Under the pieces are notes generated by a model. That model did not search any database and was not told the DNA's origin. It worked only from the letters and a program-made list of their open reading frames with translations. DNA of 46,373 nt. Origin: Rhodocyclaceae bacterium. GTDB lineage: Bacteria; Pseudomonadota; Gammaproteobacteria; Burkholderiales; Rhodocyclaceae. Position 1 is the stretch's first letter; each line of letters begins with the position of its first letter. Positions 24,892-26,610 of the stretch are shown piece after piece. The stretch covers positions 1 through 46,373 of the forward strand of contig JAUXOM010000093.1 of assembly GCA_030682175.1 (NCBI GenBank), given 5' to 3'. The position numbers and the translations under genes are program-made.

Positions 24892-26610
24892 TCAATTCCA
24901 TTCATCGGGATAGCGGGATGTTATCGGATAACGCCAGTCCTTGCCGAAGGCACGCCGACTGACACGGATGCCCGGCGGCGCCTGACGGCGCTTGTATTCG
25001 TTGCGCTTCAGCAAAGTAACGACGCGGCGCACATCGGCTTCCGGCATGCCGCCGGCAATGATTTCGCGCGGACTCTGGTCGCGCTCCATGTAGGCCTCGA
25101 TGATCGCATCGAGCACGGCATAGGGCGGCAGGCTGTCCTGGTCGGTCTGGCCGGGCTTGAGTTCGGCCGAAGGGGGACGTTCGATGATATTGGCAGGAAT
25201 AACGCCCCCCCCGAAAACGCCGCTGTGCGGCGTCCTCCCCCCAGGGGGCCAAGAAACATTTGGGGCGGCCCGGCATGTTTCTTGAGTAAATGAGTTGCGG
25301 TAGTGCGCCAGCCGATAGACGAAGGTCTTGAAGACATCCTTGATGACGGCGAAGCCACCCGCCATGTCGCCATAGAGCGTGGCATAGCCGACCGCCATTT
25401 CGCTCTTGTTGCCGGTGGTGAGCACCAGCCGGCCGGTGCGATTGGAGATCGCCATCAGCAACATGCCGCGAATGCGCGCCTGCAGATTTTCGTCGGTGGT
25501 GTCCCAGGCCGGCTTCTCGCCCAACGGGGCAAAAGTCGGCGCCAGCAGGACGGCGAATTGTTCCATCGCGGCGGCAATCGGAATCTCGTCGTATTGCACG
25601 CCGAGTCGCCGCACCATTTCGCGCGAATCGTCGAGGCTCATCTGCGCCGTCCAGGGCGAGGGCATCATCACCGCGCGCACCTTGTCGGCCCCCAGCGCGT
25701 CGACGGCGATGGCCAGCGTCAGCGCCGAGTCGATGCCGCCCGACAGGCCGATGAGGGCGCCGGGAAACCCGTTCTTGCCGAGGTAGTCGCGTACGCCGAG
25801 CACCAGCGCCTCATACACTGTCGCCTCGATGCTCTGCGCGGGCACCCGTTCGCCCGGCAGAACATGGCCGTCCTGAATTTCGACAATGGCCAGCTTTTCG
25901 GTGAAGGCGGGCAACTGATGCGTGAGCCGACCCGCCGCGTCGAGCACGAACGACGCGCCGTCGAATACCAGTTCGTCCTGGCCGCCCACCATGTTGGCGT
26001 AGATCGCGGCGACACCGGTCTCCTGCACGCGCTTTTTCAGGGTCGCATGGCGGGTTGCCTGTTTGTTCATGTGGTAGGGCGAGGCATTCAGCACCAGCAG
26101 GATGGCGGCGCCGGCGGCCCGCGCCAGTTGCGCCGGTTCGGGTTCCCAGACATCGGCGCAGATATTCACGCCACATCGCACACCCTTGAGTTCGAAGATG
26201 CCGGGCTCGGTTCCGGCCTTGAAATAGCGCGCTTCGTCGAACACCTCGTAAGTCGGCAGGCGCAGCTTGCGGTAGGTGGTTTCGATGCGGCCGCCACGTA
26301 ACAGGGAGGCGGCGTTGTAACGCGCCTTGTCGTGCGCCTCGGGATAACCGACCAGGAGGGCCAGGCCCGGTGCAAGCAAATTCGCCGCCGTTGCCAGCGC
26401 CGTCAATTCACTGGCGCAGGCGCGATAAAAATCAGGTCGCAACAACAGATCTTCCGGCGGATAACCGCAGAGCGCCAGTTCCGGCGTCAGCAACAGATCG
26501 GCACCCCGTTGATGCGCAGTCTGGGCAGCCGCAAGGATGCGTTGTGCATTGCCGGCGACATCGCCGACCGTGCAATTGATCTGGGCAATCGCAACTTTCA
26601 GTGTAGCCAT
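24892..26610 (-). CDS. nadE: glutamine-dependent NAD synthetase with in-frame repeat insertion
   Basis: A 572-residue cytoplasmic enzyme making NAD from deamido-NAD, ATP and glutamine. The N-terminal nitrilase-like glutaminase domain has its Glu in [14 protein letters not shown], Lys in [17 protein letters not shown] and Cys in [10 protein letters not shown]. The synthetase domain has the P-loop [13 protein letters not shown]. The C-terminus ([27 protein letters not shown]) is typical. Residues 443-469, from QETCRAAP to GVFGGG, are encoded exactly by an 81-bp palindromic repeat. Removing it leaves [21 protein letters not shown], which matches the family as I recall it. The reading frame is intact, so the gene is probably functional. 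ATG 26610 is preceded by another copy of the repeat seven bases away. glnB follows after 17 bases. Confidence 0.93.
25204..25284 (-). repeat. 81-bp palindromic element, copy C, inside nadE
   Basis: On the minus strand a 10-bp stem (CAAGAAACAT/ATGTTTCTTG) encloses the loop GCCGGGCCGCCCCAA (25250-25284). A GCCCCCTGGGGGG hairpin, an ACGCCGCACAGCGGCGT hairpin and a TTTTCGGGGGGGGC end follow. It begins exactly on a codon boundary, and 81 bases equal 27 codons without a stop. Copy D (26618-26698) has the same length and architecture. Confidence 0.88.
25531..25553 (+). repeat. possible copy of the 20-bp motif inside nadE (antisense)
   Basis: AAAAGTCGGCGCCAGCAGGACGG resembles AAAGTCGGCGCTGGCGGGAC plus GG with three differences. 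It lies antisense to nadE. Codon bias could produce it. Confidence 0.3.

Follow-up and report, generated by a model that had tools for sequence, protein, structure and literature searches.

The window, the whole 46,373-nucleotide stretch of Rhodocyclaceae DNA that was analysed, carries nadE and four copies of a palindromic element (Table 1). An ATG also lies at 26610-26608, shortly after the GTG start of nadE. The product has the Pfam domains CN_hydrolase and NAD_synthase, and its NCBIfam match is NAD+ synthase. One copy of the element lies inside the gene, where the reading frame stays open across it and the conserved NadE residues around it are intact. A sequence-only reading had described this block as a palindromic in-frame insert of 81 bp (27 codons); it is real and in frame, but extends over 84 bp (28 codons). 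Its palindrome (25250-25266/25268-25284) is 82% complementary and is accompanied by a second hairpin. The predicted fold of the block (-48.3 kcal/mol, z -3.65) was equalled by 2 of 200 shuffles, and 57 of the 84 bases are G or C.

Table 1. Positions of nadE and of the element copies in the window
Feature	Position	Strand	Details	Basis
nadE, glutamine-dependent NAD+ synthetase	24892..26616	-	574 codons from GTG 26616	
In-frame palindromic element	25204..25287	-	28 codons, T443-G470; family A	Repeat search and NadE alignment
Hairpin 1	25250..25284	-	Arms CAAGAAACAT / ATGTTTCTTG around core	Palindrome listing, folding
Loop/core of hairpin 1	25259..25274	-	GCCGGGCCGCCCCAAA, 1 difference from search core GCCGGGCCGCCCCAAG	
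Hairpin 2 / G-rich tail of nadE element	25204..25249	-		Folding
Second copy	26615..26698	+	Family A; in nadE leader, between nadE and next gene	
Third copy, core	38733..38748	+	Family B, longer tail; changed copy in G009	
Fourth copy, core	18137..18152	-	Family B, one mismatch; no core there in G009	

The second copy, to which exactly the length and layout of the nadE block had been ascribed, is indeed a repeat (84 bp, 76% identical to the nadE copy), but it is missing from this junction in the sister species G009, which has other sequence there. It lies a few bases before the nadE start codon and is oriented like most junction copies, with its core antisense to the neighbouring genes. Its fold was no better than that of shuffles (z -0.42). 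Where window positions 26601-26745 hold this element beside nadE, G009 has approximately 0.6 kb in which the end of an inorganic pyrophosphatase gene can be read by eye.

The proposal that the block is a repeat and not ordinary divergence is confirmed by the rest of the genome. An 81-bp query gave 43 matches at E ≤ 1e-3, 42 of them besides itself (78 to 94% identity). The 16-nucleotide core GCCGGGCCGCCCCAAG was found with up to two mismatches at 332 places, against 49 for a reversed control, and exactly at 183 places, against none for the control. Stretches around most of 100 listed exact-core places, combined with earlier loci, yielded a sample of 120 distinct core hits (95 exact), 117 of which had pairing arms; the other three were dropped because their arms were weak. 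Over the 120 hits, arm positions were paired in 88% of cases compared with 51% in shuffles, and positions 2 to 8 outward from the core were paired in 88 to 98%, with several pair types at each (41 to 61% for shuffled partners). Such pairing indicates that the loop, by which the copies were found, is conserved while the stem varies with compensation. By their tails the 117 copies fall into families A (30, the nadE type), B (51), C (20), D (12) and E (2), with two unassigned; these labels come from simple rules and a few copies are misplaced (for example, L150 and L172).

Dimers and tandem arrays of the element are present, and at one locus (L027) the family-A unit is present in two tandem copies in this genome (G000) and in one copy in G009. 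The idea that unit length is fixed as a multiple of three by adaptation found no support, as array spacings in other genomes include 60, 82, 91 and 111 (read by eye). In the window, no Rfam family reached its gathering threshold; the nadE copy had no match in plasmid and phage collections, and a literature search for 13 bases of the core as text gave no match.

Among the sequences compared, the block is confined to a narrow clade. In an alignment of 111 NadE rows (loci, with duplicates of the same genome included) it was present in five: the present genome twice (L001, L031), G009 (L032) and G015 twice (L038 and L085, a Rhodocyclaceae MAG to which L038 is apparently identical). It is therefore not unique to this sequence but is shared with the sister species G009 and G015. 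The remaining 106 rows have few residues at the site, mostly S-E, S-D or similar, although six have six to eight residues rather than the usual three, so the block occupies a loop of naturally varying length. At the DNA level, two codons of the relatives are replaced by 28, a net insert of 78 bp; as most relatives have two residues here, the net gain in NadE is 26 residues. The nearest named NadE records are those of Rhodocyclaceae MAGs.

AlphaFold2, run on 38 NadE sequences, gave a mean pLDDT of 87.5. Residues 446-469 were the only long stretch below 50, a value which is not proof of disorder, and are placed by the model between helices 430-449 and 475-479. The expectation that the block would prove to be a loop thus agrees with the model, and its likely effect on the protein, judged from this prediction, is that of a floppy extra loop. 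When NadE was aligned to a PDB chain, the element again appeared as an insertion. A family search for NAD_synthase in the 99.7% complete assembly returned no second full-length NAD synthetase: nadE matches the profile over its full length, and two partial matches, covering 75 and 119 of its 242 positions, were taken for related ATP-binding enzymes. The enzyme presumably remains active with its insert.

That the element would also be found inside other coding genes of the host was borne out. A coding-score scan, for which nine window genes served as the training set and which was applied to other genera too, showed 11 of the 117 copies to lie within ORFs whose sequence on either side of the element is coding in one frame. 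The genes are nadE, bioC, uvrA, murC, hrpA, cobQ and thrC, and those for an M48/Ste24-type peptidase, a binding-protein-dependent permease, a YgiQ radical-SAM protein and a membrane protein without a family match. Two cases found later, an amiC-like amidase gene and a gene read by eye as that of an rRNA methyltransferase, raise the count to 13 of 117, a share that need not apply to more degenerate copies because the sample consists mostly of exact cores. A copy in lnt, from outside the 120 core hits, is the 14th in-frame insert. Alignments to PDB chains break at the element in UvrA, MurC, ThrC, HrpA and the M48 peptidase.

In-gene copies occur in both orientations, and those with a family label are of type A, C or E; the first scan placed none of the 63 B and D copies in genes, compared with 11 of 52 others (P ~8e-5). 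Twenty copies were flanked on either side by sequence coding in one direction; ten of them were in frame and ten lay between separate ORFs; none of the 20 broke a frame, and copies that did so may have been purged. Selection for stop-free frames was considered and found no support: the number of open frames per 84 bp is close to that of dinucleotide shuffles: in family A 4.62 (shuffles 4.84) in genes and 4.64 (4.34) elsewhere, in family B 4.76 (4.65), and in family C outside genes 4.28 (4.61), with fewer in family D (3.17, shuffles 3.93). As open frames are about as frequent as composition predicts, no special coding design needs to be invoked.

Empty sites were sought in seven relatives for four of these genes. 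The insert was absent from all orthologues covering the site, namely six for uvrA, six for murC, seven for thrC and five for hrpA. The net insert is 99 bp in uvrA (5/5 relatives measured) and 84 bp in murC (5/6), thrC (7/7) and hrpA (3/5), with the remaining three rows aligning alike. G009 carries the nadE insert and lacks these four, which are thus probably younger. Within 400 kb of G009, 17 copies could be located by both flanks and 22 more by one flank. Six of the 17 sites, nadE included, keep the core in G009, and the other 11 are empty, have a changed or non-collinear junction, hold a remnant or lack a tandem unit. This turnover between G000 and G009 indicates that the family is mobile, or was so recently, presumably by means of some transposition machinery. 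By eye, some junction copies have short repeats at either end, and imperfect ones were seen at murC and uvrA, but no consistent rule could be drawn from them.

Outside genes, the element has a strong orientation bias. Among the 104 non-genic copies, the core is antisense to co-directional coding neighbours in 37 and sense in three (P ~2e-8). Eight of the ten copies between co-directional ORFs have the upstream stop codon within 8 nucleotides of the element edge; in the other two, which are longer B copies, it lies 44 to 48 nucleotides inside the assumed span. On the transcribed strand, copies of families C and D often have CTTGGGGCGGCCCGGC followed by GGAGGC or a similar stretch and next by a start codon; a coding ORF starts within 13 nucleotides of the core in 9 of 18 C copies and 6 of 12 D copies. 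At L178, L182, L190, L194, L162, L167, L183 and L191, the hairpin's 3' arm is GGAGGC-like on the transcribed strand and is followed by a start codon after 0 to 6 nucleotides. From its sequence, the hairpin arm of these two families is a possible mobile ribosome-binding site. The orientation and start-codon biases of intergenic copies suggest that the element acts at translation boundaries or targets them by preference.

Several known systems resemble this family. The betaproteobacterial repeat element (BRE), of approximately 90 bp, is described in the 2011 report (PMC3110155) as 75 to 91 bp long with an average GC content of 69% in Bordetella, mostly intergenic and tandem, with some copies wholly in coding sequences, and as occurring in betaproteobacteria including Rhodocyclaceae and Comamonadaceae at a maximum of 29 copies per genome. 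The net inserts of 84 bp (murC, thrC, hrpA) and 78 bp (nadE) fit this length range, although that of uvrA (99 bp) deviates. High GC content, occurrence in several betaproteobacterial families, variable tandem number and a mostly intergenic location with some in-gene copies agree as well, whereas 183 exact cores exceed 29 copies. On these traits the insert is filed as a likely BRE; the nadE element is probably a BRE, matched by description and not by sequence.

GTAG/CGTC REPs, whose intragenic copies include examples from Thauera and in uvrA in the 2013 report (PMC3733652), likewise form stem-loops with variable paired stems and alternative complementary residues, are numerous per genome, often lie near gene ends and have in-gene copies. 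However, 28 of the 30 family-A copies, that of nadE included, carry no GTAG-like or CGTC tag (of the other two, one has GYAG and one CGTC); the nadE copy has ATTTAC beside its stem. A GYAG-like tag occurs in 36 of 51 B copies and in none of 34 copies of families C, D and E. None of the three Y1_Tnp genes of the genome is a RAYT flanked by the element, and a core lies within 1.5 kb of just one of them (the lnt copy, downstream), so the surroundings of these genes give no support to a RAYT as mover. Two RAYT-like genes (L141:1441-2199 and L143:1464-1897) have other kinds of repeat nearby (AAGGGGCCAGGCTC and GTAGGTCGGGCGCAAGCCCGAC, by eye). Beside the third Y1 gene (L142), the adjoining stretch resembles by eye the end of a family-E copy.

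Like MITEs, the element is short, non-autonomous and dispersed, but no terminal inverted repeats joining its ends were listed and there is no clear target duplication at nadE. In behaviour it recalls the RPEs, reviewed in PMC10969869, palindromic repeats of Rickettsia that have inserted in frame into a wide range of unrelated housekeeping genes. In-frame insertion into unrelated functional genes is the same here; the host lineage is different and the element has 84 bp rather than approximately 150 bp. The analogy is drawn for behaviour and makes no claim of family membership. The sequence-only reading had called a betaproteobacterial counterpart of RPEs notable, but that nadE would be the first such case is not supported: repeats within coding sequences were already in print in 2011 and 2013 (PMC3110155 and PMC3733652), so the nadE insert is a new case of a known phenomenon.

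Very probably, the nadE block is a copy of a high-copy, mobile, non-coding REP-like repeat, probably BRE, tolerated in frame in a loop and kept passively. The element would insert throughout the genome, with most copies outside genes and many at gene junctions, and a copy inside a gene would survive only if its length is a multiple of three, its frame is without stops and the host protein tolerates a loop. The nadE copy would have landed before the three species split, in a loop whose length already varied, and would be translated as approximately 28 extra disordered residues that persist by passive tolerance. The natural variation of this site in length could also suggest that the loop grew by ordinary divergence or slippage and merely resembles the repeat, but the 42 other genome matches include core, arms and tail, which refutes this explanation and leaves it a negligible probability. 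It is scarcely more probable that nadE has recently become a pseudogene or that the block is an error of assembly. The assembly is fragmented (153 contigs), yet three genomes have the block at the identical site, the frame is kept, the surrounding NadE residues are intact and the search found no other full-length NAD synthetase; both are largely refuted.

Strict neutrality, on the other hand, does not predict the low divergence of the nadE insert. In three species pairs, which are not independent comparisons, it differs at 3/81, 1/81 and 4/81 positions, against 47/292, 44/174 and 39/168 fourfold sites; codon positions 1 and 2 of nadE, at 43/1080, 25/654 and 40/654, diverge to a similar extent as the insert. 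This, with retention in three species and the stable hairpin predicted in the mRNA, speaks for the insert having been domesticated, its loop or mRNA hairpin serving NadE in regulation, interaction or translational pausing under selection. Such a role is nevertheless unlikely. Few codons have changed, and the changes are mostly non-synonymous (2/3, 1/1 and 3/4); the three changes between G000 and G009 all fall in the hairpin-2 half (by eye), the model gives the loop low confidence, and the same repeat sits in many unrelated proteins for which no shared function is apparent. Among five other copies shared with G009, two of family A are slightly less divergent than their flanks (4/59 versus 75/797 and 6/59 versus 108/778), and three of family B or C have changed strongly (19, 20 and 23 of 59). 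A broader proposal, drawn from the junction copies, also seems unlikely: that the element is a mobile translation-boundary hairpin preferring stop/start junctions, nearly always in the same orientation, whose 3' arm in families C and D supplies a GGAGG-like stretch before the start codon, in-gene copies being by-products of which some, such as that in nadE, are kept by selection.

These inserts offer a repeatable and dated example in which a mobile non-coding repeat would lengthen housekeeping enzymes outside the Rickettsiales. One genome has them in at least 14 proteins, and for several of these the sister species supply the exact site before and after insertion. The question raised by RPEs, of how proteins tolerate or recruit such inserts, is thereby testable beyond obligate intracellular parasites. 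For annotation, blocks of this kind should not be mistaken for conserved domains.

The element is not restricted to this lineage. Of 300 genomes sampled from the order, representing 134 genera, 38 genomes in 26 genera have the exact core, and a C-type query found six records, in Burkholderia, Paraburkholderia, Azoarcus and Acidovorax. In 20 stretches of five other genomes, 2 of 21 copies lay in long ORFs coding on both sides: one in frame in mfd (G316, L274) and one in a salicylyl-CoA 5-hydroxylase/oxidoreductase gene, between its two domains. Plasmid pEP1 of Acidovorax temperans (L284:398-1660) carries a gene annotated as phosphoglycerate kinase (pgk) with an in-frame C-type element, which adds approximately 22 residues directly after the RADLNVP motif. 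Against a solved kinase, the main alignment of this protein begins past the element, and the short preceding piece is too weak alone. The inserts in Mfd and UvrA add to a published remark that repair genes carry REPs.
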